In this document: positions 27,474 to 56,648 of the stretch, in pieces
Position numbering within the stretch: the stretch's first letter is position 1
How the letters are laid out: each line of letters begins with the position of its first letter
Source of the DNA: Robiginitomaculum sp.
GTDB taxonomy: Bacteria > Pseudomonadota > Alphaproteobacteria > Caulobacterales > Maricaulaceae
NCBI GenBank assembly: GCA_002733805.1
Contig: NVXG01000002.1
Span: 62,001 to 126,000 of the forward strand
DNA length: 64,000 nt
Direction of reading: 5' to 3'
Position numbers and translations under genes: made by a program
Notes under the pieces: generated by a model
The model's input: only the letters and a program-made list of their open reading frames with translations
What the model was told of the DNA's origin: nothing
Databases searched by the model: none

Positions 27474-27482
27474 ATCTGTTTC

Positions 27483-37678: not shown

Positions 37679-37726
37679 AATATGCATCTCCCTTTATGTG
37701 CCGAACAAGGAATTCATTCGGCTTCT

Positions 37727-37822: not shown

Positions 37823-38908
37823 ATGCCTCTAATTCCGCCGGAAAAGAAGAAAAATCCATCGCTGTTTATCCACAGCGATATGTTCAAACGACCGGCATGG
37901 GGCAGCAATCACCCGCTGGCCATTCCTCGGCAAAGCGCCATGCTGGATTTGCTGGAAATGCTGAACTGGATCGGACCAGACAACACTAAGGTTTGCCATG
38001 CCGCGAACCGCAAAACCTTGGTACAATTTCATACCCCTGATTATGTGGATGCCTTTTTTCAAGCAGACACCAGTGGCAAAGTGAGCCAAGCAAACCGCCA
38101 GAAATACCAATTGGGCACCATGGAAAATCCAATTTTTCCTGGATTGTTCGAGCGGGCCGCCACAACGGTCGGCGGTTCAATCATGGCGGCAAAGCTGGCT
38201 GGTGAAGGCCGAATTGTGTTTCACCCGTCTGGTGGTACCCATCATGGACGCCCCGATCGGGCCAGCGGATTTTGTTACTTTAACGACCCGGTATTTGCCA
38301 TTCTTACCCTACTGAATCAGGGATGCACGCGCATTGCCTATGTGGATGTGGATGCACATCATGGCGACGGAGTGCAGGATGCATTTACTGACGAGCCACG
38401 AGTCCGGTGCATTTCCGTGCATGAGGAAAACCGCTGGCCGCATACGGGAACAGGCGACGATCACGGCAACGGACATGCGTATAACTTCCCCACGCCTCGG
38501 GGTGTGGGTGACCTGGCCTATGCTGATGTGATCAACGCCCGGATTTTGCCATTGGTTCGAGAATTCGCGCCAGAAGCCGTAGTCATTACCTTTGGTGCCG
38601 ACGCGTTGGATGCCGATCCGCTTTCGGCCATGGGTTTGAGCAATACGTGTTTGCTGCAAACCTGCGTCCAAATCTGCGATCTGGCCCCAGCAGCGGTCGT
38701 ATTGGGCGGCGGCGGATACAATCCATGGACCACAGCCCGGCTCTGGACAGCATTTTGGGGCTTAATCAGCGACCAACAGGTTCAAATCAAGCTGCCAAAG
38801 CCGGCTCGCGAAATGCTGGAAGGTCTGGAGTGCGATTTGATTGACCCTGAAGACATGCGGCCCGAATGGACCACCACCCTGCTCGACCCCGCACTCGGAG
38901 CAAGCTGA
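37823..38908 (+). CDS. histone-deacetylase-family amidohydrolase
   Basis: A 361-residue zinc hydrolase of the HDAC/acetylpolyamine amidohydrolase fold. Catalytic His pair H140/H141 (GTHHGRPDRASGF), zinc ligands D177 and H179 (DVDAHHGDG) and D260 (GADALDADP), and the late GGGGYNPW with the active Tyr. The substrate may be an acetylated polyamine, protein lysine or a thiol conjugate. It is divergent from dsrE2-tusA and shares their promoter region, so a link to sulfur metabolism is possible. Confidence 0.85.
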   Translation: MPLIPPEKKKNPSLFIHSDMFKRPAWGSNHPLAIPRQSAMLDLLEMLNWIGPDNTKVCHAANRKTLVQFHTPDYVDAFFQADTSGKVSQANRQKYQLGTMENPIFPGLFERAATTVGGSIMAAKLAGEGRIVFHPSGGTHHGRPDRASGFCYFNDPVFAILTLLNQGCTRIAYVDVDAHHGDGVQDAFTDEPRVRCISVHEENRWPHTGTGDDHGNGHAYNFPTPRGVGDLAYADVINARILPLVREFAPEAVVITFGADALDADPLSAMGLSNTCLLQTCVQICDLAPAAVVLGGGGYNPWTTARLWTAFWGLISDQQVQIKLPKPAREMLEGLECDLIDPEDMRPEWTTTLLDPALGAS

Positions 38909-40814: not shown

Positions 40815-41852
40815 ATGAATTGGCTGGATCAGGTTACCGCGATTGAAGAATTTGAGGATGCTGAGTTCGACCCGGCATTAATCGCGCAGATGCAGAACCA
40901 TTCGGCGCAATCCCTGAACCGGCAAATCCGGTTTTCCACCCCGACCTTTAAGGAATTTGAATCCACCGAGCTTTCAGGCTGTGGCAAAAACTCATTTCCG
41001 GCCTTTTCCATTACCGCTGGCGGCTGTGCGTTGAACTGTGATCATTGCCAAAAGAAAATTCTGGAGCCGATGATCCCGGCCACCAAGCCGGAAATGCTTG
41101 AACAAAAAGTCCGCGACATGATCCTGATGCAGGATTTGCAAGGGTTTTTGCTGTCCGGTGGCTCCAATAAGCGAAATGAAATCCGCTATGAGCGCTACCT
41201 GCCGGTCGTGGAAAGATTGAAACACGATTTTCCGCATTTGCAGATTGCCATCCACACCGCCTTGCTCGACGAAACAGCCGCCAAACGGATGGAATCGGCT
41301 GGGGTTGATAGCGCCATGATGGATGTGATCGGCGCGCAAGAAACCATCAACCAAGTCTATAAGCTGGATCGCCCGGTGGCTGATTTTGAAGCCACTTTGG
41401 CTGCTCTGACCTCAACCAAACTGAAAGTCACACCGCATATCGTTATTGGTCTACATTATGGCAAATTACTTGGCGAGGAAAATGCACTGGATATTGTCTC
41501 GCGCTATGATTGTCATGCGTTGGTGCTGGTGGTGATTATGCCGTTTTACGCCAAACCGGGTACATTCGAAACGCCCTCCACCTCCGATGTCGGCCATATC
41601 TTCCTGCAAGCCCGCCAGCGACTGCCCAATAAGCAAGTCCTGCTCGGTTGCGCCCGCCCGCCCGGCATGCACAAGCGCGTGACCGATGCCTATGCCGTGA
41701 TGGCGGGCTTAGATGGCATTGCTTTTCCAGCCGATGGCGCAGTGGCGGCATGTGAGGCGATCGGTCGCTCGTTTTATCAAGAACATGCCTGTTGCGCCAT
41801 TAAGATCGGTGGTAGCCAGTCGGCACAGGCCAGCGCGACCTGCGCTGCATGA
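40815..41852 (+). CDS. lipS2: radical SAM sulfur insertase LipS2-like
   Basis: A 345-residue radical SAM protein. The cluster motif CALNCDHC gives C71, C75 and C78 (CX3CX2C). Together with LipS1 it inserts sulfur atoms into octanoyl groups in the alternative lipoate pathway used by sHdr organisms. Additional Cys near the C-terminus (HACCAIK and ATCAA) could bind a second cluster. AGGGG lies about 10 bases before the ATG. It leads a tightly packed operon; its stop overlaps lipT by 4 bases. Confidence 0.85.
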   Translation: MNWLDQVTAIEEFEDAEFDPALIAQMQNHSAQSLNRQIRFSTPTFKEFESTELSGCGKNSFPAFSITAGGCALNCDHCQKKILEPMIPATKPEMLEQKVRDMILMQDLQGFLLSGGSNKRNEIRYERYLPVVERLKHDFPHLQIAIHTALLDETAAKRMESAGVDSAMMDVIGAQETINQVYKLDRPVADFEATLAALTSTKLKVTPHIVIGLHYGKLLGEENALDIVSRYDCHALVLVVIMPFYAKPGTFETPSTSDVGHIFLQARQRLPNKQVLLGCARPPGMHKRVTDAYAVMAGLDGIAFPADGAVAACEAIGRSFYQEHACCAIKIGGSQSAQASATCAA

Positions 41853-42955
41853 CACAAAATCCCGACATTCTGGTTTTAGGGCTTGGCCCGGCTGGTGCCA
41901 GTGCCGCACGGGCTGCCGCTTTGGCCGGCTATTCCGTATTAGCCGTAGAACGAAAAACCGAGCCAGGCACCCCGGTCCAGTGCGCCGAATTTGTCCCCGC
42001 TATGATCGGGGCCGAAGTGTCAGCACTGGTCGATACAACGATCCAGTCGATAAGCTCGATGGTGACCCAAGTTGAGCAAGAACCAGCCGATATCACCCCA
42101 AACTTTCCGGGCCGGATGATTGATCGCGCCCGGTTTGACCATCAATTGGCTAATGATGCCGCCGCAGCCGGGGCGCAGACCCGGTACGGGATCAATGCGC
42201 GGGACATCTCGACCGGTGGGGATATCGACTTATCAGATGGCAGCCATATCTCGGCAAAAGTGCTGATCGGAGCTGATGGTCCACATTCACTAGTTGGTAT
42301 GGCCATTGGCTCGACCAATGATGAAATTCTGGAAACCCGGCAAATCAATGTGCCTTTGTTACAGCCGTTTGACAGCACCGATATTTTTCTAAAACAGGAT
42401 ATTCCCGGCGGTTATGCTTGGGCATTTCCCAAAGGGGGCACGGTCAATCTGGGACTGGGCGTTGAGGCATCGGCCAAAGATCAGCTAAAACCTCTGCTCG
42501 AGGATCTGCACCGGCAATTGGTGGCCGAGGGCCGGGTTGGAGCACAAATCAACAGTTATACCGGCGGGGCCATCCCGGCGGGTGGCTTGCTGAAACCCTA
42601 TCGCGTGCTGGGTGGCACGATGTGCCTGTTGGCGGGCGATGCAGCCGGATTGACCAACCCGATTACCGGAGCCGGAATCAATTCAGCGGTGATCTCTGGC
42701 AAACTGGCCGGAGAGGCCGCCGCTCAGTATCTGGCTGGTGACATGCAAGCCGCCGAAAACTATCAGGAAGACCTGACCGATTTGTTTGGGCCTTCGCTGA
42801 CCCGCGCTCTTGCCCATCGCACCCGCATGGCGCACATTTTACAAAATCATAAAACCCCAGACCCGGAGCAACTTCGTTCCGGCTGGATCGCATATTCGAC
42901 ATATTGGGAGCCGATTATCTCGGCTCAAACGGAGGAAATCCCATGTCCTGCTTGA
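41849..42955 (+). CDS. lipT: FAD-dependent oxidoreductase LipT-like
   Basis: A 368-residue flavoprotein of the geranylgeranyl-reductase-like family. The FAD-binding GLGPAGASAARAAALAG is near residue 10, and LAGDAAGLTNPITGAGINSA near residue 260 is the second FAD segment. In sHdr clusters it is proposed to provide electrons to the radical SAM proteins. The ATG overlaps the lipS2 stop (ATGA), and its end overlaps lipS1 by 13 bases. Confidence 0.82.
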   Translation: MTQNPDILVLGLGPAGASAARAAALAGYSVLAVERKTEPGTPVQCAEFVPAMIGAEVSALVDTTIQSISSMVTQVEQEPADITPNFPGRMIDRARFDHQLANDAAAAGAQTRYGINARDISTGGDIDLSDGSHISAKVLIGADGPHSLVGMAIGSTNDEILETRQINVPLLQPFDSTDIFLKQDIPGGYAWAFPKGGTVNLGLGVEASAKDQLKPLLEDLHRQLVAEGRVGAQINSYTGGAIPAGGLLKPYRVLGGTMCLLAGDAAGLTNPITGAGINSAVISGKLAGEAAAQYLAGDMQAAENYQEDLTDLFGPSLTRALAHRTRMAHILQNHKTPDPEQLRSGWIAYSTYWEPIISAQTEEIPCPA

Positions 42956-44238
42956 AACCTGAGGGCACCCAGCCCGGCGATACTTCGTCAGATGGCCGCG
43001 ACTTTAACGCCTTTGACGTAATGGAGCCGCGCAAACCGACGAAAACCCCGACTGAACTGCGAAATGGCGGCCGGGTCAAAACCGGCGATGTACCGCCCAC
43101 CGGGTTATATTTGCCCAACAACAACATTCAAACGCCGAATATGACCTCGCCGGAATATGTGCAACTCTCGACCGCTGCGGCGCTGACTTTGGGCATCATG
43201 CCCGGCAAAATGCATCGGTGTGAATGTACCAGATGCCTGAACATCCTGCTGACCTATCCTGAAGGTTGCCGGGCCAATTGCGCCTATTGCGGGCTGGCTC
43301 GCCACCGTGAAGCGGACCGCGATTATGCAGATCGCAATTTCATCCGGGTCGACTGGCCATCCGTGCCGATGGATCAGATCATTGATATTGTCGCTAAAGA
43401 TGCTGAAAACTCACCGTTTCACCGAATGTGCATTTCGATGATTACCCATCCGCGCGCTGATGATGACACGGTAACGGTTCTGAAAAACTGGACTTCCAAG
43501 ATCGACCCTTCGGCCATCCCGATTTCAATTTTATCCAACCCGACCACCATGAACCGCGCCAATGTGCAGGAATTGCACGATTTGGGTTCTGATATTTTTA
43601 CGGTGGCGCTGGATGCGGCCACTCCGGAATTGTTTGACCGGACCAGAGGTAAAGGCGTGCAAAGCCCGCACACATGGAAGAAGTATTGGGAAATTCTGCT
43701 CGATGCCAAAGACATTTTTGGCAAAGAGAAATTCGGGGCACATATTATTGTCGGCATGGGCGAGACAGAATATGAAATTCTGACTCTGGTCGAGCAATTG
43801 GTTGAGATGGGTGGTCACAGCCACATGTTCTGTTTCTACCCTGAAAAAGGCTCGTTGATGGACCATCTACCGGCCACGCCGCGCGACCAATGGCGCCGGG
43901 TGCAATTGGGCCGCTATCTGCTCGATTATTGCGGTGCCAAGGTCAAACACATGAACTTTGATGGCGAAGGCCGGGTAGTTGATTTCGGCTTGCCCAAGGC
44001 CGAACTGGACATGATTATCGACACTGGAATTGCCTTTCGCACGTCGGGTTGCCCCGGCAAATTCGCCGAAGATATTTCGGCTTGTGACCGGCCCTATGGC
44101 GACAGCCCGCCTTCGGATATCGCGTCTTATCCCTTCCAGCCCCAAGACGTGGATTTGCGTCTGATCCGCAACCAACTGGATATGGAAAAACCGGGCGAAC
44201 CTTATGAAGAAGGCGAAGAACTGGAAGACTGGAAATAG
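42943..44238 (+). CDS. lipS1: radical SAM lipoyl synthase LipS1-like
   Basis: A 431-residue protein with two cysteine groups: auxiliary C93, C95 and C98 (CECTRC), and radical SAM C109, C113 and C116 (CRANCAYC). This pair fits the LipS1 partner that sulfurates octanoyl-protein together with LipS2. The ATG at 42943 has GGAGGA at 42931; the longer frame start at 42904 lacks a site. Its stop TAG overlaps the GTG start of sLpl(AB) by one base. Confidence 0.85.
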   Translation: MSCLKPEGTQPGDTSSDGRDFNAFDVMEPRKPTKTPTELRNGGRVKTGDVPPTGLYLPNNNIQTPNMTSPEYVQLSTAAALTLGIMPGKMHRCECTRCLNILLTYPEGCRANCAYCGLARHREADRDYADRNFIRVDWPSVPMDQIIDIVAKDAENSPFHRMCISMITHPRADDDTVTVLKNWTSKIDPSAIPISILSNPTTMNRANVQELHDLGSDIFTVALDAATPELFDRTRGKGVQSPHTWKKYWEILLDAKDIFGKEKFGAHIIVGMGETEYEILTLVEQLVEMGGHSHMFCFYPEKGSLMDHLPATPRDQWRRVQLGRYLLDYCGAKVKHMNFDGEGRVVDFGLPKAELDMIIDTGIAFRTSGCPGKFAEDISACDRPYGDSPPSDIASYPFQPQDVDLRLIRNQLDMEKPGEPYEEGEELEDWK

Positions 44239-45344
44239 TGGCAAAACCCCAATTTCGGGTGATCGATACCGGCCTGCGGACCGGGCGGCAAAACATCGCA
44301 TTTGATGCCGCCATGATCGAGGCGCACCAGAGTGGAGCCATTGGTGACAGTATCCGCTTCATCCATTTTGAACCCTGCGCCTTGATCGGCCGGCACCAAG
44401 ACCTGAGCCGCGAACTGAAACTGGAGTATTGCGCTCGCCACAATATCCAGACGGTGCGCCGGATCACCGGCGGCGGGGCGATCTATATGGATCAGGGGCA
44501 GATCGGCTGGGCCTTGGTGTTTTCACGCAAAACCCTTGGCGTTACTGATCTGGGCACCTTAGCCAAATTGATTTGCGAAGCAGCAGCCGCTGGATTGAGC
44601 AAGCTTGGCATAGAAGCGCGATTTCGCCCGCGCAATGACATTGAAGTGGATGGCCAGAAAATCGCTGGAACCGGCGGTTTTTTTGATGGCGACACCTTGT
44701 TTTACCAAGGCACCGTGTTGATCGATACCAATCCGCAAATCATGGCCAGCGCCTTGAATGTCGCCAAAGCCAAACTGGAAAAGCGTTCACTGGACAGCGC
44801 GGCGGCGCGGGTCACCACCTTGGCCCAACTGCTAGGCACTGCGCCAACCATCGACACCATCAAGCAGGCATTGCTGGATGGGTTCGCAGAAAATTTGGGC
44901 ATTGAAATATCGCCGGACACACCCAGCGCCACCGAAGAAGCATTGGCCCGTGAATTTTACGACGAGGAAATTGGCCAAGATGCTTTTGTTGCCGAAATTG
45001 ACCGTGCCGGAGTCGGTGCGAATGTGGGGCATGGTTCCCATTCCGGCCCCGGCGGCATGGTCAGTGCTTTTGTCCGGCTTGAGGGTCACAACAATGACCG
45101 ATTGCGAGAGGTGTTGATTACTGGAGATTTCTTTGTAACACCGCCGCGTATTGTACTGGATCTGGAGAGCCATTTACGCCGGGTGCCGGTGGAGGAAATC
45201 AGCGCAAGTGTTGATAGCTTTTTTGCCAATGCTGAAGTGGATCTACTTTCCATCTCGCCGTCTGATTTTGTCACAGCCATTACAAATGCCGTGCAGAACA
45301 CTGGATCACCCGCTCCACCGATCAAGTCGGAGGATGGCGTGTGA
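44238..45344 (+). CDS. slpl(AB): lipoate-protein ligase sLpl(AB)-like
   Basis: A 368-residue ligase with an N-terminal LplA catalytic part and a C-terminal LplB-like accessory part. Family motif RRITGGGAIYMDQG is at residues 74-87; IAGTGGFFDG carries the substrate-binding lysine just before it. It likely attaches octanoate or lipoate to LbpA. It starts with GTG overlapping the lipS1 stop. The fused A/B layout is the form linked to sHdr gene clusters. Confidence 0.85.
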   Translation: MAKPQFRVIDTGLRTGRQNIAFDAAMIEAHQSGAIGDSIRFIHFEPCALIGRHQDLSRELKLEYCARHNIQTVRRITGGGAIYMDQGQIGWALVFSRKTLGVTDLGTLAKLICEAAAAGLSKLGIEARFRPRNDIEVDGQKIAGTGGFFDGDTLFYQGTVLIDTNPQIMASALNVAKAKLEKRSLDSAAARVTTLAQLLGTAPTIDTIKQALLDGFAENLGIEISPDTPSATEEALAREFYDEEIGQDAFVAEIDRAGVGANVGHGSHSGPGGMVSAFVRLEGHNNDRLREVLITGDFFVTPPRIVLDLESHLRRVPVEEISASVDSFFANAEVDLLSISPSDFVTAITNAVQNTGSPAPPIKSEDGV

Positions 45345-45433: not shown

Positions 45434-46132
45434 ATGAAATACTTGTCTGTCATTCAACACACTTCAGCCGAATATCTTGGCCTGATGGAGGATCATTTGG
45501 AGGGGCGTGGCATCCGGTTTAATTATGCCCGCCCCTTTACCGAAGAAGGCAAACCACCAGACCCGACAACCGTTGGCGACGGTCTGGTTTTGTTGGGCGG
45601 GGGACCGTGGGGCAGCGCCGGCACAAGGGATGTTCCGACACTGAAAACTGAAATTGCCCTGGCCCGAGCCTGCCTGATGATGAGCAAGCCCATTTTGGCT
45701 ATTGGTCTGGGCGCGCAAATTCTATCCTTGGCCGCCGATGGCACGGTTGAAACCTCGCCGTTGGATTTTTCTGCTGAAATGGCCAGCCGGACTTGTGATG
45801 ATGCCCTGAACGGATTTTTACCGGAAAAATTCCCCCATATCACCTATGGCCGGGATCGAGCTGTGCCGCCGCCCTACGCCAAAATTCTGGCCGAAGATGC
45901 GCAAGGTCGCCCGGCGATTTTTCAGATCGGTGACAACGCATTTGGCTTTACCGGCCACCCCGGTTTTAAACTGGCAATGGCCGAAGACCTGATTATGGAA
46001 TTCGAGGAAGCCCCTACGAATAACGCGACAGCTTTCACCAATTTACGCGCCATGAAAACCCAAGTCGAAGACGCACTGGTCCCAATCATGACCGGCCTGA
46101 TCCAACTAACTGGCTGGATGCGGGACGACTAA
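45434..46132 (+). CDS. class I glutamine amidotransferase-like protein lacking catalytic residues
   Basis: A 232-residue protein with the class I GATase fold. The nucleophile elbow, normally GxCxG, reads AIGLGAQ (Gly91 where Cys is expected), and the HPE motif is changed to HPG (H175, G177). A glutaminase activity is thus unlikely. It follows the lipoate genes after an 89-base gap; similar genes accompany lipoate-sHdr clusters elsewhere. Its role may be binding rather than catalysis. The 3' end is repeated at 47827-47919. Confidence 0.78.
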   Translation: MKYLSVIQHTSAEYLGLMEDHLEGRGIRFNYARPFTEEGKPPDPTTVGDGLVLLGGGPWGSAGTRDVPTLKTEIALARACLMMSKPILAIGLGAQILSLAADGTVETSPLDFSAEMASRTCDDALNGFLPEKFPHITYGRDRAVPPPYAKILAEDAQGRPAIFQIGDNAFGFTGHPGFKLAMAEDLIMEFEEAPTNNATAFTNLRAMKTQVEDALVPIMTGLIQLTGWMRDD

Positions 46133-46198: not shown

Positions 46199-47680
46199 TC
46201 ACCCAAGTGCTGAAGAGGATTCCCGAACTTTTTGCGTTGCTGCATTTACTTGTTCAGCAGCACTAATGATGCCACTAATACCGTGTGTGATATTATCAAC
46301 ATTGCTCGCTGCGGTCTGCATGTTTGCAGACATGTCACTCGTTACAGCAGTTTGCTCCTCCATCGCCGCAGATATGGCCGCAGAGTATTCGTTAATTTGA
46401 CCAATGGTCTTGGAAATCCCCTCAATGGCAGCAACAGCCTCCTCCGAGGCTTTTTGAACTTCACCGATTTGAGTGCTGATTTCCTGAGTGGCTTTGGCTG
46501 TTTGGCTGGCCAAGGACTTTACTTCGGAAGCAACAACAGCAAATCCTTTACCTGCCTCACCAGCGCGAGCAGATTCGATTGTTGCATTTAAGGCCAGCAA
46601 ATTGGTTTGTTCTGCAATATCTGAAATCAAACCGACAATCTTGCCAATTCTTTGCGCCGAATCAGCCAAGCCAGATACCACGGTATTTGTTTCACTGGCC
46701 TGCCCCACGGCTTCAGTAGAAACGTCCAACGCCGAAGAAACTTGCCGATTGATCTCGCCCACTGAGGCAACTAATTCCTCAATGCCTGCAGCCAATGCTT
46801 GCACATTTGATGAGGTTTCATCTGCAGAACTAGAAACAGTGGATGCTTGTTCATTGGTGTTTGTTACCGCATCCGCGATTTCTCCAAGATCTTGGTCAAT
46901 ACTATTTTGCAATTCAGCGCGCCGCATTCTCTCCTCAACCTGACCAGTGATGTCGGTTGCAAATTTCACGACTTTGATCGTCTTGCCAACATCATTAAGA
47001 ATTGGATTATAAGAAGCCTGAATCCATACAATTTTGCCGCCTTTACCGATACGTTTGTATTCACCTGCCTGATATTCACCGCGATGCAAAGAATCCCAAA
47101 ACACTTCATATTCCGTGGAATTACTGACCCCCTCCTCGACAAACATGCTGTGATGCTTCCCCTCTATCTCATCAAGTTGATACCCCAATGTAGATAGGAA
47201 ATTCTGGTTGGCTGTAAGGATGGTTCCATCTGTCTCAAACTCGATGACGGCCTGCGATTTATTGATCGCCTCGATTTTACCTTGAAAATCAATATCCTGA
47301 TTTTTTTGCTTGGTTATATCCGTAGCAAATTTGATGACTTTTACCGGTTTGCCCGAAGAATTGATGATCGGGTTGTAGGAAGCCTGAATCCATACAACTT
47401 TGCCGCCTTTACCGATACGTTTGTATTCATCTGCCTGATATTCACCGCGACGCAAAGAATCCCAAAACGTTTTATATTCCGCGGAATTACGGACCGCTTC
47501 CTCGACGAACATGCGGTGGTGCTTCCCTTCTATCTCATCAAGTTGATACCCCAATGTAGACAGGAAATTCTGATTGGCTGTAAGGATGGTTCCATCCATA
47601 TTAAATTCAATGACGGCCTGCGATTTATTGATGGCATCTATTTGAGCCTTAAGTTCATTTGATGATCCAAAATTTATCAT
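46199..47680 (-). CDS. soluble methyl-accepting chemotaxis protein with duplicated PAS
   Basis: A 493-residue protein without a membrane helix. Two near-identical PAS domains lie about residues 15-125 and 137-247, offset by 122 residues; shared stretches include [20 protein letters not shown]. The rest is the MCP signalling domain ([36 protein letters not shown] split across the hairpin tip). It senses a cytosolic signal and controls CheA. It sits against the grain of the sulfur operons and is bordered by a duplicated GATase 3' end, so it was probably inserted. Confidence 0.88.
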
Positions 47681-47826
47681 AGTCTTGCTACCTATCATTG
47701 TAATTTGATTTATTGCGTGACTTTGATCTAATCAGCATTAAGAAACAACTAACAGATGCGCACGGTAATGAGCCACCGCATGGATTGTAGAGATTGACCA
47801 CAAGGATTCGTACGGCATCTCTCCCA

Positions 47827-47919
47827 AATTTACGCGCCATGAAAACCCAAGTTGAAGATGCACTGGCCCCGATCATGACCGGCCTGATTCAACTAACGGG
47901 TTGGATGCGGGACAACTAA
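47827..47919 (+). pseudogene. remnant: duplicated 3' end of the GATase-like gene
   Basis: These 93 bases align without gaps to 46040-46132, the end of the GATase-like gene. 85 of 93 bases match; six of the eight changes are synonymous. The last 30 codons (LRAMKTQVEDALAPIM... to the stop) remain open, but nothing upstream continues the gene. It is a leftover of a second, diverged allele. Confidence 0.85.
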
Positions 47920-47923
47920 GTCC

Positions 47924-48667
47924 CTACTCGATCAAATTGGCCAAGGTGTCGTGGTGGGCTGAGATCAACTCGCGCAGGTAAAACCCAATGCTATTATCGT
48001 CCTCGAACCCGGCCTTTTTGGCTGCGGCCAAGGACTGACCTTCTTCGAGGTCAGGTCGTGCGGCAAAGGCAGCCAGATTTTCGTATGCTCCGATGGTAAA
48101 GGCATCGACATTGGTGCCGCGATCGCCCGTGAAAATCAGATTGCCCCGGCGTTTGGTGGCTTCCAGATAGACATTTTCCATTTCACGCTGCTCCAACAAT
48201 TTATCCTTCAAGGCAGGTAAAGCATCAAACATTTCGATGTGGAAGAATTTGGCATCGCCCACATGCGTATTGGTGAACTCGGCGCTTGGCCCAAAGGCGA
48301 ATAACTCGGCGCGATAGGCAATGCGGGCATTGCGGGTTTTTAGCTGGTCGGCAAATTCGATCCGCGCTGCCTCGGCCAGCACCAACCTGTCAGCCCCGAA
48401 AAACGCGCCATAACTGCCAATCGGCTCTAGCAACATCAGGTCCCATTGGTCGCCCTGACTATGGCGCATGATCAGCGGTTGGTGACGCCCGGATGCCGCA
48501 TAATACCCGGCTTCTTTCAAGGCCCGATGATCGGCAATCAACGCCTTTAACTGGCCCGGCGCAGCGCGCAATGTGATGGTTAGATATAAGGTGTCCCGCG
48601 CTGGTTCTGCCGCCCATGTTGGACTGGCATTGGCAACAACCAAAAGTATCATCAAAAAACGAAACAT
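47924..48667 (-). CDS. exported protein of unknown function (NIPSNAP-like pattern)
   Basis: A 247-residue protein with a Sec signal (LMILLVVANASPTWA, cleavage likely after WAA). The mature part has two similar halves with YLTITLRAAPGQ/HIEMFDALPALKDKLLEQREMEN patterns that recall ferredoxin-like NIPSNAP or EthD folds. No catalytic motif is evident. It is divergent from dsrE3C-shdr and shares their promoter region, so it may be part of the sulfur response. Confidence 0.6.
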   Translation of the reverse strand: MFRFLMILLVVANASPTWAAEPARDTLYLTITLRAAPGQLKALIADHRALKEAGYYAASGRHQPLIMRHSQGDQWDLMLLEPIGSYGAFFGADRLVLAEAARIEFADQLKTRNARIAYRAELFAFGPSAEFTNTHVGDAKFFHIEMFDALPALKDKLLEQREMENVYLEATKRRGNLIFTGDRGTNVDAFTIGAYENLAAFAARPDLEEGQSLAAAKKAGFEDDNSIGFYLRELISAHHDTLANLIE

Positions 48668-48882: not shown

Positions 48883-49260
48883 ATGGCTGATAAGCTGATG
48901 ATTATCATGGCCAATACTGATCCGCGTAATGGCGAGGAATTAGGCGCACCTATCTTTCAGGCTACCGTGGCTGCCGCCATGGAGTATGAAGTGGAAGTTA
49001 TCTGCACAGCCACCTCTGGCCGCTTGATGAAAAAGGGTGAAGCGGAAAAAATGTTCGTGAAAGAAGGCTCTGACAAGTCAGTGCTTGAGTTTATCAAAGA
49101 TGCTCACGGTGCTGGCGTAAAGTTCTTCTGCTGCTCGCCCAACCTTGATCTGTTTGACATGACGGTTGATGACCTTATTCCCGAATGCGAAGGCATTGTG
49201 GGCGGTGCCTACCTGATTGAGCAAATCATGGAAGAAGACGTCAAAGTCCTCACTTACTAA
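48883..49260 (+). CDS. dsrE3C: DsrE3C-like sulfurtransferase
   Basis: A 125-residue DsrE-fold protein. A vicinal pair C83-C84 (KFFCCSPNLDL) is at the position of the active cysteines in DsrE3C proteins, which accept sulfane sulfur from TusA in sHdr organisms. GGGAGG precedes the ATG at 48883. It is first in the shdr operon, with 24 bases to shdrC1. Confidence 0.9.
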   Translation: MADKLMIIMANTDPRNGEELGAPIFQATVAAAMEYEVEVICTATSGRLMKKGEAEKMFVKEGSDKSVLEFIKDAHGAGVKFFCCSPNLDLFDMTVDDLIPECEGIVGGAYLIEQIMEEDVKVLTY

Positions 49261-49284
49261 TCCTGTAATTTACAAGGAAATCGT

Positions 49285-50034
49285 ATGAGTCACGCGTCCA
49301 CAACAACCCGTAAGCAAACGGTCATCGGGGATCCAATCTCTGATAACCCCGAAGTCAGCCAAGACAAGCTGGAGCAGATATTTGCCGATATTCAGGCGGA
49401 TTTACGCTATGATTATGAACTAAATGGTTGTTTGAACTGCGGGATTTGCACCGCCACCTGCCCGGCGGCACACTATTACGATTTTTCCCCGCGCGAGATT
49501 GTCCAATTGTTATGGACTGAAAACCTTGAAGGCATTTACGATGCCATGCAGGAGAAGATTTGGGCCTGCGCCCAATGCTATACCTGTGCGGCACGTTGCC
49601 CATTTGGCAACTCACCCGGCGGGCTAATTATGTTGATGCGCGAAACCGCCATCAAACACGGCTTCGAAAGCGCCAAAAACGTGTTGCGACCGTTCAGCCG
49701 GGTAATGTTGAAACTGATTTCCACCGGCAATCAGTTGTCGCCCGACATGATCAATCCAGAGCACTTTGCCGATTGGGGTCCGAATATTTCCAAAGTGGAT
49801 GCGCCGTTGAAAATCTTGCGTAAAGCCATCCCGATGCCGACCCTGAACACCACGGAAACCGCGTGGGAAACCAATTTGAAAACCTCGATTGAGCTGTACA
49901 CCATCTGGGAAGAAACCGGCGTGCTGGATCAACTGGAAACCATTGATGAAAACCTGTTCGACGTGATCCTCGATATCATGGATGAAAAACGCGAAGACTG
50001 GGAAGATTGGCAGGACGAACAGGACGACGACTGA
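49285..50034 (+). CDS. shdrC1: sHdrC1, iron-sulfur subunit
   Basis: A 249-residue HdrC-like protein with two [4Fe-4S] sites: C49, C52, C55, C59 and C95, C98, C101, C105. It carries electrons within the sHdr complex, which oxidizes LbpA-bound sulfane sulfur to sulfite in the cytoplasm. AAGGAA lies upstream of the ATG. The C-terminus is rich in acidic and Trp residues (DEKREDWEDWQDEQDDD). Confidence 0.93.
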   Translation: MSHASTTTRKQTVIGDPISDNPEVSQDKLEQIFADIQADLRYDYELNGCLNCGICTATCPAAHYYDFSPREIVQLLWTENLEGIYDAMQEKIWACAQCYTCAARCPFGNSPGGLIMLMRETAIKHGFESAKNVLRPFSRVMLKLISTGNQLSPDMINPEHFADWGPNISKVDAPLKILRKAIPMPTLNTTETAWETNLKTSIELYTIWEETGVLDQLETIDENLFDVILDIMDEKREDWEDWQDEQDDD

Positions 50035-50066
50035 TCACCCACGACTCAAGACAAGGAGACCACAAC

Positions 50067-51422
50067 ATGGCCACCAAAGAAACCGACGGAACACGCTTCA
50101 CCGGACACGGGTCCGAATGGCGCGATAGCAATTTGAGCCAAGAAGAGGCACTGGTTGCCACCGCTTGGATCGAACAGAAAATCGACAAACGCTCCATGCT
50201 GACCAACAAGTCGCGGGTCCACGACATTCGCGACACCATGTGGGAGCTGGAAAAAGAAGGCGAGATTGTTGTTCACCGGATCAATGATCAACACGACCCA
50301 GTGATGGCAAAAACCCTGTATGGCTGGGACAAGAAAATCCCGACCAACCAGCTTTGGCACCATAAATCTTGCGGGCAATGCGGCAATATTCCGGGCTACC
50401 CCACTTCTTTGTTGTGGCTGATGAACATGCTCGACGTGCGTTACTTAGATGAAACAGATCAGACTTCTTGCACCGCGTGGAACTATCACGGATCAGGTAT
50501 TGGCAACATCGTGTCCTTGGCCGCTGTGTTCTTGCGTAACTTCCATCAAGCCTACGTTTCGGCCAAAGCCGAAGGCAAACCAGAGGGATATTATTATCCG
50601 CTGGTCCATTGCGGCACCAGCTTTGGCAATTACAAGGAAGTGCGGGAATACCTGCTATTGTCGGCTGAATTGCGTGAAAAAGTCCGCAAAATCCTCGGCA
50701 AGCTGGATCGTCTGGTCGATGGCAAATTGCTGATCCCTGAGGAAATTGTCCACTACTCCGAGTGGACCCATGTGATGCGTAAACGCATTGCCGAACATCA
50801 GGTTATTGATGCCAGCGGCATTCGCGCCACCATTCACCCGGCCTGCCATGTCTACAAAATGGTTCCACAAGACGTGATCTATGATGATGACGTACTGGAT
50901 GGCGAACGGGTGGCGGTTTCCACCGGCATTATCGAGTCGCTGGGTGCCCAAGTGATTGATTATTCAACTTGGTATGATTGCTGCGGCTTTGGCTTTCGCC
51001 ACATCATTTCAGAGCGCGAGTTTACCCGCTCCTTTGCCATTGATCGCAAGATCAAAGTGGCGGTCGAGGAAGCCAATTCCGATGTGATGATCGGCCATGA
51101 TACCGGTTGCATCACCACACTGGATAAAAACCAGTGGATTGGTCAGGCCGATGGCAAAAATTATGATCTGCCGGTGATCGCCGATGTGCAATTTGCGGCA
51201 CTGGTTTGTGGAGCCGACCCGTACAAGATTATCCAGTCCCATTGGCATGCTTCAAGCACCGAAAAGCTATTTGATAAACTGGGCATCGACTGGCGTGCCA
51301 AAAAAGTTGAGTTCGAGGCCTACTTAAAACAGGTAGAAGCTGGACATCAGGAAAATCTCTATGACCCACGTCGGATGATTACCGGTGGGCCAGGCTATCA
51401 GAAACAAGAGCAAATTTCATGA
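50067..51422 (+). CDS. shdrB1: sHdrB1, CCG-domain subunit
   Basis: A 451-residue HdrB-like protein. Cysteine-rich parts include C102/C105 (HKSCGQCGN), HPACHVYK, WYDCCGFGF and HDTGCITT, the CCG-type ligands of non-cubane iron-sulfur clusters. It probably forms the sulfur-binding active site together with HdrC1 and HdrA. The ATG at 50067 has AAGGAGA upstream. The stop overlaps shdrA by 4 bases. Confidence 0.9.
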   Translation: MATKETDGTRFTGHGSEWRDSNLSQEEALVATAWIEQKIDKRSMLTNKSRVHDIRDTMWELEKEGEIVVHRINDQHDPVMAKTLYGWDKKIPTNQLWHHKSCGQCGNIPGYPTSLLWLMNMLDVRYLDETDQTSCTAWNYHGSGIGNIVSLAAVFLRNFHQAYVSAKAEGKPEGYYYPLVHCGTSFGNYKEVREYLLLSAELREKVRKILGKLDRLVDGKLLIPEEIVHYSEWTHVMRKRIAEHQVIDASGIRATIHPACHVYKMVPQDVIYDDDVLDGERVAVSTGIIESLGAQVIDYSTWYDCCGFGFRHIISEREFTRSFAIDRKIKVAVEEANSDVMIGHDTGCITTLDKNQWIGQADGKNYDLPVIADVQFAALVCGADPYKIIQSHWHASSTEKLFDKLGIDWRAKKVEFEAYLKQVEAGHQENLYDPRRMITGGPGYQKQEQIS

Positions 51423-52468
51423 GCAATAAACCGATCCTAGTTGTGGGGGGCGGACCGGCTGGTCTGGCTGCTGCACATTCGCTGGCCGCTGTTGGCCAAA
51501 AAACAGTGTTGGTGGAAAAAGAAGATCGTCTGGGCGGCGCGCCGATTTTGTCGGGCTATGCCAAGCTGGTCCCCAGTGGCGAATGGGCCAAAGATGCCAT
51601 TGGCTCGATGGTCACCCGCGTTGAGAAACACAAATTGATCACCGTGAAAACCGGCGTATCGGTCTCAGAGTGCAAGGGCAAAGCCGGGGATTTCAAAGTG
51701 AAATTCTCCGAAGGCAAAGGCGCCAGCTTTTCTTCCGTAGTGATGTGTACCGGCTTTACCCATTTCGACAGCATCAACAAACCTGAATGGGGCTTTGGCA
51801 CCTATGAAGACGTGGTGACCACTACGCAGGTCGAGCAGATGATTTCATCGGGTCAGGGCGTTCGTCGCCCATCCAATGGTGACAAGCCAAAACGGGTAGC
51901 CATTTTGCTGTGCGTTGGCTCGCGGGATCGTCAAATTGGCCGGGAATGGTGTTCCAAAATTTGTTGTACGGTTTCGGCCAATCTGGCCATGGAAATCCGC
52001 GAAGAATTGCCGGATTGCCACGTCTATATCTATTATATGGACATCCGCACCTTTGGCTTGCTGGAAACCAAATATTATTGGAAAAGCCAAGAAGAATACA
52101 AAGTAAAATACATCAAGGCCCGGATTGCCGAAGTGACCTCCGATGGCGATAAAATCATCGTCAAAGGCGAAGACACTTTGGTCAAACGCCCGATTACCAT
52201 CCCGTTTGACCTAGTAGTGCATGCAATCGGTATGGACCCCAACATTGACAATATGTTGCTATCCTCGATCTTTGATGTGGACCTTGAAACCCATGGCTTT
52301 ATTGATCGCAAAGATGCCTATGGCGAGTTGGGGGCCACCTCGCGACCCGGCATTTATGTAGCGGGTTCTGCCACTGGCCCAGAAACCATTGATGACAGCA
52401 TTGCCCAAGGCACGGCTGCTGCAATGAGTGCGCTGGTCAGTAGCAATTCCAAAATCGCCGCTGAATAG
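51419..52468 (+). CDS. shdrA: sHdrA, FAD-binding subunit
   Basis: A 349-residue flavoprotein with an N-terminal FAD loop GGGPAG (residues 10-15) and an iron-sulfur site formed by C165, C178, C182 and C183 (CVGSRDRQIGREWCSKICC). It is short, like other sulfur-oxidizing HdrA proteins, and lacks the extra ferredoxin domains of methanogen HdrA. It is the electron-bifurcation-type core of the complex; NAD may be the acceptor, which is not shown by the sequence. Confidence 0.93.
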   Translation: MSNKPILVVGGGPAGLAAAHSLAAVGQKTVLVEKEDRLGGAPILSGYAKLVPSGEWAKDAIGSMVTRVEKHKLITVKTGVSVSECKGKAGDFKVKFSEGKGASFSSVVMCTGFTHFDSINKPEWGFGTYEDVVTTTQVEQMISSGQGVRRPSNGDKPKRVAILLCVGSRDRQIGREWCSKICCTVSANLAMEIREELPDCHVYIYYMDIRTFGLLETKYYWKSQEEYKVKYIKARIAEVTSDGDKIIVKGEDTLVKRPITIPFDLVVHAIGMDPNIDNMLLSSIFDVDLETHGFIDRKDAYGELGATSRPGIYVAGSATGPETIDDSIAQGTAAAMSALVSSNSKIAAE

Positions 52469-52481
52469 GATCGTAGTCCCG

Positions 52482-53348
52482 ATGCTCTCGTCTTTCTTTC
52501 CATCCCGCCAGAAACCAGCACCAGCTTCGGCAAATCTGCCAGAGCTGGAATTGTCGGGTCCGGTTCTGGCCGAAAGCTTCAAGGCGATGGTTCATGGCTG
52601 TGAAGCTCTGGGGGGGATTGAACGATATATCGAGGCATTGAAACTGAAGCACACCCTGTTTCACCAAGCGGTCAGCGATAATGCGCTAGACACCATGACC
52701 GAAGAAACCTTTGCCGGTTTGTGTACCTTCATGGGAACCGTCCGGCGGCGGATATCGTCGCATTTGTACGGCGAGAACTTCATTGCGATGAAGCAGGCTT
52801 TGGGGCCATTGCTGACCAACATGAAAAACACGGCCGATGTGGATCAACGCATTGCCGCGTTTTGCGCTTGTTTCCCTGAAGATAAAAAACACCGCTGGGT
52901 GCGCGATCTTGCCGCAGAAATGCTGCACAATGTTGACCCGGCGCGTTATCCGCTGATGACCCGCTGGATGTGGGACCGCAAATCCAATACCGGTGTGATC
53001 CGCGAGATATGGCATGGCGATGATGTGGACAGCAACACATTGAACGTACCCGATGGCCACCCCACTTTTGTTGCGCTTCGAGCTGATCTGGGCGGCTGGT
53101 TATCTGAAAACGGGGTGTTTGCCGACACCATCTATTACGTGGATTTGTTGTGTGCCCAAATATACGCAAATTACATCTGCGCCCAAGGCGGCACCTATTT
53201 GCGAGCCGACTTCACCTCCCCGCAAGACCCCATGCAGTATTCGCGCAGATTGCTCGGTCTGGACGGGATCAAACAAAGCTCCAGCCGCACTCGGCTAAAA
53301 GCCGAAGACGGCGCTTCCTTTGCCTTTGACTCTAAATTACTCGACTGA
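52482..53348 (+). CDS. conserved sHdr-operon protein of unknown function
   Basis: A 288-residue helical, cytosolic protein with no motif that I recognize. It sits between shdrA and shdrC2, the fixed place of the Hyp gene in shdr operons, so it probably belongs to or assembles the complex. Several Cys are present (VHGCEAL, FCACFPED, YVDLLCAQIY, NYICAQGG). The ATG at 52482 has AGGA just before the end of shdrA. Confidence 0.8.
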   Translation: MLSSFFPSRQKPAPASANLPELELSGPVLAESFKAMVHGCEALGGIERYIEALKLKHTLFHQAVSDNALDTMTEETFAGLCTFMGTVRRRISSHLYGENFIAMKQALGPLLTNMKNTADVDQRIAAFCACFPEDKKHRWVRDLAAEMLHNVDPARYPLMTRWMWDRKSNTGVIREIWHGDDVDSNTLNVPDGHPTFVALRADLGGWLSENGVFADTIYYVDLLCAQIYANYICAQGGTYLRADFTSPQDPMQYSRRLLGLDGIKQSSSRTRLKAEDGASFAFDSKLLD

Positions 53349-53360
53349 TCGGAAACTCAT

Positions 53361-54101
53361 ATGGCCATTCATGAAAAACACCTGATCCGCCCGGAAAACA
53401 TCAGGACCCATGACAATTTGGTCATCGACGGGGTGGATGTATCTGGCCATTGGTCGACCTTTATCGAAACCCGGGTGGTCACTGATTATAACGAAGCGTT
53501 GGAAGAAGAAATCGCCGCCCTGCCCGGTGGTGAGTATATCCACCGCTGTTGGCAATGTGGCTCGTGCACCAATGCGTGTACGGTCAATGCGGTCAATCCG
53601 GATTTTAATCCGCGCTATTGGATTTATCTGATCCGTATGGGCATGGAATCCGAATTGCTGCGTGACAAGGATATCATCTGGCAATGCGTAAGTTGCAACA
53701 AATGCACCTATGCTTGTCCGCGCGATGTGGTCCCTGAGGGGGTCATGAAAGCCACCGCGCACTGGCTGGAGATGAAGGGTCACACGGAACCCTCAAATTC
53801 GACCATTTTTGACGAGGAGTTCACCCGGCAAGTGGTCAAAACCGGCAAGATTGAAGACGGCCGCATTTTGATGAATTTCCTGAAGAACTCCAAGCAACCT
53901 TTGGTCCAGGATTGGCTCGTTCAAATGGTCATGCAGATGGTCAAACACCTGCCATTCAAATATCTATTCGGCTTGGGCTGGGCCACTTTGTTTGCGCCCA
54001 AAACTAAACGCTGGGCCAAAACCCGCGATGCTATCGAAGAACATATTGCCGAAGAGAAGGCCGCCGAACGCGCCGCTCTTGGCCTTGATCCAAAGACATA
54101 A
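53361..54101 (+). CDS. shdrC2: sHdrC2, iron-sulfur subunit
   Basis: A 246-residue paralogue of sHdrC1 with clusters at C63, C66, C69, C73 and C109, C112, C115, C119. It provides the second HdrC arm of the complex. A weak GGAAA lies upstream; the tail is charged (AEEKAAERAALGLDPKT). It is 11 bases from shdrB2. Confidence 0.93.
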   Translation: MAIHEKHLIRPENIRTHDNLVIDGVDVSGHWSTFIETRVVTDYNEALEEEIAALPGGEYIHRCWQCGSCTNACTVNAVNPDFNPRYWIYLIRMGMESELLRDKDIIWQCVSCNKCTYACPRDVVPEGVMKATAHWLEMKGHTEPSNSTIFDEEFTRQVVKTGKIEDGRILMNFLKNSKQPLVQDWLVQMVMQMVKHLPFKYLFGLGWATLFAPKTKRWAKTRDAIEEHIAEEKAAERAALGLDPKT

Positions 54102-54112
54102 GAGGAACGCAA

Positions 54113-55048
54113 ATGCCTGACCGTAAAGATAAATACAAGGAAGTTGCCTACTACCACGGCTGTGCCTTGGAAGGTACGGCCCAGCCGTACAACACCTCGA
54201 CCCGTGCGATCGCCAAAGAGCTTGAACTCAAACTAGTTGATATCAAGAACTGGAATTGTTGCGGCGCGATGGAGGTCAAAAACGTCGACCCGGAGATCCA
54301 GACCTATTTGTCGTCTCGCGTCATGTCACTGGCCCATAATGAGATGAAGCAAGACGTGGTCATGGCCCCGTGTAATGGCTGTTATCACAACCTCAAAAAA
54401 GCCGAATACGACATCGCCAACAAGGAAGAGTCGCGCGCGGTCGTTGAGAAAATTTCGGCCAAAGCCGACCACCCAAAATACGAAGCCGGACAAGTAGAGA
54501 CCATCCATGCACTGGACTGGATCAAGTTTGGCTATGGCGAAGAAGAGCTCAAAGCAAAAATCAAAGGCGGCCTTAAAGGGCTGAAAGTAGCCAATTATTA
54601 CGGCTGCATGTACACGCGCCCCCGTCATATTTTCCCGGAAAAAGACCAAGGCGGCGAGAGTGAGAGCACATCAAAACCGCATTATATGGATGATTTGCTG
54701 GAAATTGCCGGCGCAGTAAACGTCGAGTTTCCAATGAAGACCGCTTGTTGCGGCGGGGCACATACCCTGTCGGATTCGGATATGTCGACCAAGCTGGTGC
54801 TGAATATCCTGCAAGCTGCCGAGGCAGCCGGTGCCGAAGTGATCGCCACCGAATGTCCGACCTGCCATTCCGGTTTGGAAATGCACCAGATCCGCGCCTT
54901 AAAACGATTGTCCAAACAAACCAACGTAAAAGTCATTTACTTTACCCAATTGCTGGGCATGGCCATGGGCCTCAGCCCGCGCAAAGTTGGCTTGCACGAA
55001 AACGTCTCGGACTCGATGAAGTTCATGAAGCAAAAAGGCATCACGTGA
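54113..55048 (+). CDS. shdrB2: sHdrB2, CCG-domain subunit
   Basis: A 311-residue HdrB-type protein with two CCG domains: C17, C49, C50, C87, C90 in the first, and NYYGCMYTRP, ACCGGAHT and TECPTCHSG in the second. These bind the unusual iron-sulfur clusters where sulfur chemistry occurs. AGAGGAA precedes the ATG. The end overlaps the next small gene by GTGA. Confidence 0.93.
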   Translation: MPDRKDKYKEVAYYHGCALEGTAQPYNTSTRAIAKELELKLVDIKNWNCCGAMEVKNVDPEIQTYLSSRVMSLAHNEMKQDVVMAPCNGCYHNLKKAEYDIANKEESRAVVEKISAKADHPKYEAGQVETIHALDWIKFGYGEEELKAKIKGGLKGLKVANYYGCMYTRPRHIFPEKDQGGESESTSKPHYMDDLLEIAGAVNVEFPMKTACCGGAHTLSDSDMSTKLVLNILQAAEAAGAEVIATECPTCHSGLEMHQIRALKRLSKQTNVKVIYFTQLLGMAMGLSPRKVGLHENVSDSMKFMKQKGIT

Positions 55049-55461
55049 GAACCTTTGAAAAATTAGAGGCCGCATTGGAGCATCCGGTTCACCGGGGAGC
55101 GCCAAAAGATGCCGCTACTTTTCTGCTGCACGTTGGTGAAGAAGCACTGGAAAACTGGATTGAGGCCAAAGAGCTAGAACCTACGGATCAGGTTCGCGAA
55201 GGATTTCGCATTTTGGCCCTGCATCGCCAAGGTGCCAAAGGTGATCCCAGCTTTAATGCGTGCCGCGAAACGGCGCGCGAACTGGTCTATCATTACAATC
55301 TGATCTGTCTTGACCCGGATCACCCCCAAACCAATCATCGCCTTGAAATGATGCAATTGGTCGCCAAGCATCTGGTATTTTTCATTGGCGGAAAACTACA
55401 AGTGGCCGGACTTGGCGAGTTTTGTTGCGCTGCCAAACCAATCCGGTTAGAATCCATTTGA
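55045..55461 (+). CDS. small unknown protein coupled to shdrB2
   Basis: A 138-residue protein starting at a GTG that overlaps the shdrB2 stop (GTGA). It is hidden inside a longer frame that runs through shdrB2. It is mostly helical (LHVGEEALENWIEAKELE) and ends with a vicinal Cys pair EFCCAAKPIR. I do not recognize the family. Tight coupling suggests a partner or maturation factor for sHdr; lbpA follows 39 bases later. Confidence 0.75.
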   Translation: MRTFEKLEAALEHPVHRGAPKDAATFLLHVGEEALENWIEAKELEPTDQVREGFRILALHRQGAKGDPSFNACRETARELVYHYNLICLDPDHPQTNHRLEMMQLVAKHLVFFIGGKLQVAGLGEFCCAAKPIRLESI

Positions 55462-55500
55462 ATCAAAGCAATACCCCAACGCGATAACAAGGATAAAATC

Positions 55501-55938
55501 ATGGCTGATGTTCGTGGCTGTCACCTACCCGATGAATTGCTGTACGATGTGGGCAACCATATCTGGGTACAGGAACAGGAAAACGGAAATATCCGGCTGG
55601 GCATGACTTCGGTCGCGACCGCGTTGGCTGGTGCCTTGGTTGCCTTTACACCCAAAAAAGTCGGCCGCAAGGTCAAAGCTGGACGTTCCTGTGCCACTGT
55701 GGAGAGCGGCAAATGGGTTGGCCCGGCCAAATCCGCCGCTGGCGGCGAAGTCATCGCAGTCAATGAAGACCTAAAAGCCGCGCCCGGCATGGCAAACGAC
55801 GACCCCTACGCGGCATGGATGGTCGAAATTTCACCCGAAGAATGGGACACGGTCAAAGGCACCTACGTGCTGGGTTCAGATGTGGCCGCGCCTTACGAAG
55901 CCAAAATGGACGAAGACGGTTTTGAGGGTTGTGAGTAA
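55501..55938 (+). CDS. lbpA: lipoate-binding protein LbpA
   Basis: A 145-residue GcvH-like protein. The lipoyl Lys is K71 in VESGKWVGP, at the hairpin position used by lipoylated carriers. The sequence DVGNHIWVQEQ...IRLGMTSVA matches the LbpA group rather than glycine cleavage H protein, as no gcvT or gcvP is nearby. It carries the sulfur intermediate during sHdr oxidation. AAGGA precedes the ATG. Its 3' end and terminator are copied at 56649-56757. Confidence 0.93.
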   Translation: MADVRGCHLPDELLYDVGNHIWVQEQENGNIRLGMTSVATALAGALVAFTPKKVGRKVKAGRSCATVESGKWVGPAKSAAGGEVIAVNEDLKAAPGMANDDPYAAWMVEISPEEWDTVKGTYVLGSDVAAPYEAKMDEDGFEGCE

Positions 55939-56156: not shown

Positions 56157-56540
56157 TTATTTTTCCGAGTACTCAAAAGGCAACCGTATGCAACATCTTT
56201 GTCCAATTTGGTCAAAGTCATGTTGATCAACTTTGAGAGGAGAAGCTCTTTTTTGTATTCTAGTATGTGCCACAGCGTATATATGTGAACAAATCACCCA
56301 AGTATCAACCATATCTACTCGCAATCGTTTGATCAATTTCCAAACATAAGGGTCGGTCGTATCTTGCGCCTTTGAAGTTGCAGGCAATACCAAGTATGGA
56401 ATTCTATTGTTGTTTTTAATCGAAATAACAACAGCAGGATGAATACCGATAAATTCCGGCTTTTGTGCATTTTCCGGAAAATCAACCCAAACAAAATCGC
56501 GGACACCATAAGTAATATTTACAACTTTTACACGTCGCAT
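56157..56540 (-). CDS. PemK/MazF-like toxin-family protein, orphan
   Basis: A protein of about 127 residues with the PemK/MazF pattern: DFVWVDFPEN at the start, GIHPAVVIS in the first strand pair, VLPATSKAQ, and DTWVICSHIYAVAHTRI later. MazF-type proteins cut RNA. The ATG at 56540 with GGGGAAAG is preferred over the longer frame to 56615. No antitoxin gene is adjacent. The DNA is AT-richer than its surroundings and is bordered by a copy of the lbpA 3' end, so it was probably acquired. Confidence 0.65.
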   Translation of the reverse strand: MRRVKVVNITYGVRDFVWVDFPENAQKPEFIGIHPAVVISIKNNNRIPYLVLPATSKAQDTTDPYVWKLIKRLRVDMVDTWVICSHIYAVAHTRIQKRASPLKVDQHDFDQIGQRCCIRLPFEYSEK

Positions 56541-56648
56541 GTAATCTTTCCCCGCCACACTAAATAAACCTTGTTGGCATATGCCGACCATAGGTGCCAA
56601 TTGATCACAATTCAACAGGAGGTGCGGCGTTGAGCCAAGAGTGTGTGG

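Follow-up and report, generated by a model that had tools for sequence, protein, structure and literature searches.

The 64,000-nucleotide stretch of a Robiginitomaculum sp. genome analyzed here (the window) contains, on its plus strand between positions 48883 and 55938, nine genes in one tight run, dsrE3C, shdrC1, shdrB1, shdrA, shdrH, shdrC2, shdrB2, shdrI and lbpA (Table 1), which together are an intact and complete copy, ordinary for its kind, of a known lipoate-dependent sulfur-oxidation system. All of these genes start with ATG, with the exception of shdrI (GTG), and each ends in a stop codon. The spacing within the operon ranges from a four-base overlap, found at shdrB1/shdrA and at shdrB2/shdrI, to a gap of 39 bases. 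A first-pass annotation of the DNA had named eight of the genes, in this order and with short spacing, as a lipoate-dependent sHdr operon, and had described the key cysteines and the lipoyl lysine of LbpA as intact; the gene order and the open reading frames (ORFs) are as it described, and its statement on the residues is borne out by comparison with relatives.

Gene content and conservation of the operon

For the eight genes named in the first pass, codon use scored 34 to 109, as compared with at most 22 for the other ORFs that overlap them. The mechanically called ORF that contains shdrI scored 18.8, which is explained by its opening 300 bases upstream, inside shdrB2, and therefore the evidence for this gene is its conservation. 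In a scan of a species-genome collection with sHdrB2, a relative of this protein was found to be encoded in 388 of 408 candidate stretches, so that the finding of the operon is not a matter of chance. The 80 nearest of the 388 stretches (the 80 loci) were picked by closeness to the sHdrB2 of the window and hence all represent one form of the system. Ten of the 11 closest sHdrB2 relatives, with 86-91% identity, are titled Robiginitomaculum; sHdr genes move between lineages.

Conservation was counted over the relatives with a usable ORF, including the window itself. The cysteines of sHdrC1, sHdrB1 and sHdrB2 are invariant, as are C165, C178, C182 and C183 of sHdrA, and those of sHdrC2 deviate in at most one row each. 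In DsrE3C, C84 is accompanied by C102 (65/65), C41 (64/65) and C83 (61/65). The lysine K71 of LbpA, which sits within the stretch ESGKWVG, is shared by at least 97% of the 76 rows, and C7 and C144 are present in all of them.

The family placement of the subunits points in the same direction. The nearest solved relative of sHdrA (349 residues) is 6tjr, which we take to be a protein of Hyphomicrobium denitrificans, and the HdrA chains of 643-671 residues follow far behind (E 6e-58 to 1e-50, compared with 5e-174). LbpA scores below both curated GcvH cut-offs (94.3 versus 117 and 66.5 versus 115.85), and two further GCV_H proteins are encoded in the same genome. Two conserved cysteines distinguish LbpA from GcvH according to PMC6067878 (this and the other papers are cited from excerpts), and the LbpA of the window combines the lipoyl lysine with both of these cysteines. 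The presence of shdrC1B1AHC2B2 in one syntenic cluster, by which type I sHdr is recognized in the excerpted PMC11582611, is also found in the window. Type II sHdr, for which the same excerpts give a fused shdrB3 and etfAB, has A, B1, C1 and H in common with the operon; in contrast, C2 and B2 are separate genes in the window, and no etf-like ORF was seen among the named ORFs between 48883 and 55938.

The gene order agrees with that of the type I sHdr-LbpA2 locus of H. denitrificans (Hden_0683 to Hden_0696; excerpts of PMC10332631, PMC10451225 and PMC11582611), which likewise contains lipS1-lipT-lipS2-slpl-lipX (an order given in PMC10332631), dsrE3C, shdrC1-B1-A-H-C2-B2 and one lbpA. The locus numbers of lipX (Hden_0687), dsrE3C (Hden_0688) and lbpA2 (Hden_0696) leave room for seven genes between dsrE3C and lbpA2; six of these are C1, B1, A, H, C2 and B2, and the remaining one is therefore probably shdrI, a name printed in PMC11582611. 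It was by this place between B2 and lbpA2 that the gene of the window was equated with shdrI. The window differs from the H. denitrificans locus in that two minus-strand genes separate lipX from dsrE3C, that tusA lies on the other side, together with dsrE2, and that a SoeABC-like enzyme is encoded nearby, whereas H. denitrificans, according to the excerpts, excretes sulfite.

Table 1. Genes of the operon and of its surroundings in the window
Feature	Position	Strand	Evidence
dsrE3C, sulfurtransferase	48883..49260	+	PF13686 E 2.6e-10; nearest solved 3mc3 E 3.4e-10; C84 65/65
shdrC1, Fe-S subunit	49285..50034	+	Fer4_8; HdrC models below cut-off; eight Cys, each 73/73
shdrB1, CCG-domain subunit	50067..51422 (ORF opens 50007)	+	PF02754; HdrB model 107 bits, cut-off 450; nine Cys, each 66/66
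shdrA, FAD/Fe-S subunit	51419..52468	+	6tjr E 5e-174; four Cys, each 71/71
shdrH ("hyp"), predicted protein	52482..53348 (analyses used 52488-53345)	+	no family match; AlphaFold2 model, predicted local distance difference test score (pLDDT) 86; same 10/385 genomes as sHdrI
shdrC2, Fe-S subunit	53361..54101	+	Fer4_8; eight Cys, 74-75/75
shdrB2, two CCG domains	54113..55048	+	PF02754 E 5e-23; ten Cys, each 79/79
shdrI, 138 residues, GTG start overlapping shdrB2 stop (GTGA)	55045..55461	+	78/80 loci; 23 invariant residues in 56 rows; AlphaFold2 pLDDT 90
lbpA (LbpA2-like), lipoate acceptor	55501..55938	+	PF01597 E 3.6e-28; below GcvH cut-offs; K71, C7, C144 conserved
lipS1, radical SAM lipoyl synthase	40815..41852	+	NF053742 188.9 bits, below cut-off 230; beside lipT-lipS2-slpl
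lipT, FAD oxidoreductase	41849..42955	+	FAD_binding_3; TIGR02032 over cut-off; name by position
lipS2, radical SAM lipoyl synthase	42943..44238	+	NF053743 182.8 bits, below cut-off 270
slpl(AB), lipoate-protein ligase	44238..45344	+	PF21948 E 8e-47; LplB model 49.6 bits, cut-off 65
lipX, glutamine amidotransferase-like	45434..46132	+	NF005458 65.5 bits, below cut-off; PF00117 just below cut-off
tusA, sulfur carrier	36897..37124	-	PF01206 E 1.7e-24
dsrE2	37169..37687	-	NF047629 222 bits, over cut-off 210
SoeABC-like molybdoenzyme, three genes	26535..31231	-	PF00384, PF13247, PF04976
FadL/OMPP1-type outer-membrane protein	35475..36773	-	PF03349
zinc histone-deacetylase-family gene	37823..38908	+	PF00850 E 1.1e-67; nearest solved HDLP 1c3r E 1.4e-64
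PAS/MCP chemotaxis-type protein and secreted-looking 247-residue protein	46199..48667	-	second protein without family match
PemK/MazF-like protein	56157..56615	-	PF02452 E 6.6e-10

Distribution of sHdrI and sHdrH

The first-pass annotation had regarded the gene between shdrB2 and lbpA as an extra coupled gene added by this operon, a view that has to be given up: sHdrI is a regular member, which follows shdrB2 in 78 of the 80 loci, and the contigs of the other two (L029 and L050) end at that point. The idea of a gene peculiar to this genome was rejected on the same grounds. The four-base overlap with the shdrB2 stop codon is found in 69 of the 77 loci with a full gene. The order B2-sHdrI-lbpA is present in 77 of the 80 loci, the other three being cut by contig ends. 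At two loci, about 5.6 kb of what by eye appear to be hydrogenase genes lie between sHdrI and lbpA (L023 4904-10373 and L036 11966-16854).

In a draw of 385 genomes of the same class, sHdrI and full-length sHdrH occurred in the same 10 genomes, and in a draw of 398 genomes of the phylum, they occurred in six and seven, respectively. Short sHdrH matches (about 50 residues, E 2e-4 to 7e-4) in three further genomes from the 385 and in two from the 398 were rejected; one that was inspected (L092) belongs to an ORF that resembles phenylalanine-4-hydroxylase. Phenylalanine-4-hydroxylase (E 1.1) and CheA (E 0.013) in a PDB profile search with sHdrH were taken as chance, and its model resembled HhH-GPD DNA glycosylases weakly (best Z 5.6, root-mean-square deviation (rmsd) 4.5, 163 aligned residues; Foldseek best E 0.42), a likeness that was not used. 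Neither sHdrI nor sHdrH matched in PADLOC, and a plasmid search yielded no sHdrI and, with sHdrB2, two distant HdrB proteins at about 31%. Draws of 48 genomes from the class of genome G389, of ten entries and of a class holding a single genome were without yield. Both sHdrH and sHdrI are standard components of type I sHdr that are functionally uncharacterized.

Sequence and predicted structure of sHdrI

The 23 invariant columns of sHdrI include W38, P46, E52, F54, S69 to E75, R78, E79, N85, H109, F113, G116, G124, F126, C127 and C128, and C73, C127 and C128 are each conserved in 78 of 78 rows. Searches of NCBIfam, Pfam and the PDB sequences gave no match, no match of note and no relative, respectively. 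The AlphaFold2 model is a bundle of five helices, with confidence falling after residue 120; one of the invariant cysteines lies on a helix, and the other two, as part of a Phe-Cys-Cys pair, open a loose tail. The best Foldseek E-value was 0.22. Realignment of 996 Foldseek chains with VIA-align 2 placed HEPN domains in the best rows, namely 3o10_C (Z 12.8, rmsd 3.0, 116 aligned residues) and 1o3u (Z 12.6, rmsd 2.7, 108 aligned residues), and it should be noted that unrelated helical bundles can reach a Z of about 13. Among the 13 best rows, which span Z 12.8 to 8.1, six have HEPN or HepT in their titles and several more are presumably HEPN proteins as well; below Z 8, FAT domains and other bundles follow. 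A HEPN-like fold is thus a lead provided by the model.

Two forms of type I sHdr

A different arrangement was found in genome G385, in which tusA-dsrE2-dsrE3-C1-B1-A-H-C2-B2-lbpA-dsrE3-lbpA is followed by lipS1-slpl-lipT-lipS2 and sHdrI is missing. Of 341 genomes drawn from a different class, which is probably the Gammaproteobacteria, 20 have sHdrH; the arrangement is B2-lbpA-dsrE3-lbpA in 18 of them and B2-sHdrI-lbpA in one, and the last has a lone sHdrH-like gene. The latter (L136 9443-11317, 103 bits) lies near a dsrE2-like gene, and no sHdr core was found in the 19.9 kb examined. The 18 clusters and G385, which constitute the sample of the two-LbpA form, share the core and the second lbpA with the window, but an lbpA and a dsrE3-like gene, which by their place are named LbpA1 and DsrE3B (the name DsrE3A is likewise given by place), occupy the slot of shdrI, which is missing from it in 19 of 19. 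The lip genes lie downstream in G385 and L126, the two for which the lip order was read. Conversely, all 14 draw clusters of the window's class (the window included) have B2-sHdrI-lbpA, and among the 77 of the 80 loci with an lbpA, a second lbpA-like stretch was found in one, with 30% identity and at a distance of 7.4 kb.

When 91 distinct sHdrB1 proteins (75 accompanied by sHdrI and 16 from two-LbpA clusters) were placed in a tree, one branch with a support of 100/100 divided the two forms, and the sHdrI side mixes metagenome-assembled genomes titled alpha-, beta- and gammaproteobacteria. At least five records of the material are present under two ids. The division by a single branch therefore represents one evolutionary change and not repeated evidence, and sHdrI seems to mark one of two old branches of type I sHdr.

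In five of the 19 two-LbpA genomes (G863, G1008, G904, G766 and G826), the second lbpA is followed, at a distance of about 5 to 10.5 kb, by a gene for a distant homologue of the sHdrI family (36-53 bits), a count that could miss homologues in L144, L146 and L151, where the downstream stretches are short. These proteins retain the core KGxPxxNxxRDNxREL without any of the three invariant cysteines of sHdrI; at the column of residue 77, which is cysteine in the sHdrI consensus and alanine in the window, a cysteine is present in three of the five. The invariant thiols are read as belonging to the single-LbpA form, and the tree, being unrooted, gives no direction of the change.

Neighboring genes

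The cofactor-assembly genes lipS1, lipS2 and slpl(AB) are linked to the operon in the window, and among those of the 80 loci whose contig extends far enough, most also have lip genes upstream of dsrE3C. The three-gene molybdoenzyme is one that we take to be SoeABC-like; at least four other stretches (L075, L118, L119 and L120) carry a relative of its large subunit close to the sHdr cluster. At 21 of the 80 loci, a relative of the FadL/OMPP1-type protein is encoded in the vicinity of lbpA, and this protein is perhaps the "putative fatty acid transporter" lipY mentioned in an excerpt of PMC10332631. The two minus-strand genes between lipX and dsrE3C encode proteins for which no relatives above 80 bits were found in the 80 loci. 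The PemK/MazF-like protein is encoded directly downstream of lbpA.

Compared with HDLP 1c3r, the histone-deacetylase-family protein retains the DxH, Asp and Tyr stretches, whose residues we assume to have the roles usual in this family. Of the 35 single-LbpA stretches that reach at least 350 bases upstream, 27 have a gene of this family as the direct upstream neighbor of lipS1 (for example L018 3502-4524; 26 of 34 when a known duplicate is left out), in contrast to none of the 36 two-LbpA stretches. In the window, it is separated from lipS1 by two minus-strand genes. The five two-LbpA genomes with the distant sHdrI homologue (L139, L140, L141, L153 and L154) also carry a gene of this family, 3.3 to 3.9 kb beyond the homologue. 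The protein could act as a deacylase of lipoyl- or octanoyl-LbpA; histone deacetylase was not mentioned in any of the papers listed by a literature search on the subject.

Discussion

Gene content and order, intact motifs, family placement and conservation together identify the operon, with a probability of about 93%, as a type I sHdr-LbpA system accompanied by cofactor-assembly genes of its own. By analogy with the family, the system would oxidize sulfane sulfur to sulfite, and the catalysis, the order of the carriers and the direction of flow would be as follows. TusA/DsrE2 and DsrE3C would hand sulfane sulfur to the sHdr complex (C1, B1, A, C2 and B2), LbpA would be lipoylated on Lys71 by LipS1, LipS2, LipT and sLpl(AB), and lipoylated LbpA would offer sulfur to the B subunits. 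Electrons would leave via C1, C2 and the flavoprotein A, and sulfite would be released, which the SoeABC-like enzyme, whose genes lie about 18 kb upstream, would probably oxidize further.

Several observations weigh against this interpretation. The LipS1, LipS2 and LplB model scores are all below the curated cut-offs, and the naming of the assembly genes is carried by synteny. The genome is a draft with 94.7% completeness and 4.6% contamination. No match to SoxZ was found in it, which is a difference from H. denitrificans, and since the control search was also silent, nothing can be inferred from the absence. It could also be argued that the operon encodes a methanogen-type or other heterodisulfide reductase, which would serve electron transfer or bifurcation instead of sulfur oxidation, and the C, B and A subunits do indeed match HdrC, HdrB and HdrA models. 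However, every one of these matches is below the curated cut-off, sHdrA has the length and the fit of 6tjr and not of the long HdrA chains, no FlpD was found in the genome by a search that was positive in two methanogens as controls, and lbpA, dsrE3C and the lip genes adjoin, which makes such a function very improbable. The first-pass annotation had considered best matches to methanogen-type Hdr or to GcvH as contrary evidence; the scores against the curated models of both are below the cut-offs, and 6tjr is the nearest solved relative of sHdrA.

For sHdrI within this type I system, a structural or assembly role, for example, in the sHdr complex or in the docking of LbpA, with cysteines that bind metal or form a bridge, is given slightly less than an even chance. 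A HEPN-like helical protein of this kind would be consistent with the confident helical model, with the HEPN and HepT titles among the best structural rows, and with the distant homologues that do without the three cysteines; nevertheless, these cysteines are invariant in sHdrI itself, the C127-C128 pair opens the tail of falling confidence, as would fit a mobile thiol pair, and the Z values are at a level that helical bundles may reach by chance. A HEPN-like fold might alternatively suggest a ribonuclease that regulates the messenger of the operon, and an R78-x4-H83 stretch that resembles what we take to be the HEPN ribonuclease motif (Rx4-6H) is present in the protein of the window. R78 is found in all 78 rows, but H83 is found in only 69 and is missing from the distant homologues, and together with the lack of a PADLOC match, this renders a ribonuclease extremely unlikely.

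A further and rather speculative possibility, to which we assign a low probability, is that the two old type I forms pass sulfur on differently. One form would use LbpA1 and DsrE3B beside LbpA2. In the other, represented by the operon of the window, sHdrI would replace LbpA1/DsrE3B and act through its thiols as a relay that links sHdrB2 with the only LbpA; it would be akin to the HEPN-like homologue, lacking these cysteines, that some genomes of the first form carry downstream of the cluster. This proposal agrees with the mutual exclusion of sHdrI and LbpA1/DsrE3B and with the invariant thiols, and it draws on one evolutionary change; a structural or assembly role of sHdrI is likelier than a takeover of the work of LbpA1/DsrE3B.

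With this operon, a pathway that has been studied well is found in a further alphaproteobacterium, probably Robiginitomaculum-like, in which the sulfur carriers, the lipoate assembly and a likely sulfite-oxidizing enzyme are all encoded within 30 kb. In addition, the operon draws attention to a sharp link between the uncharacterized sHdrI and how many lipoate-binding proteins there are. If it were true that sHdrI stands in for LbpA1/DsrE3B, this would reveal which step of the sHdr cycle these proteins serve.

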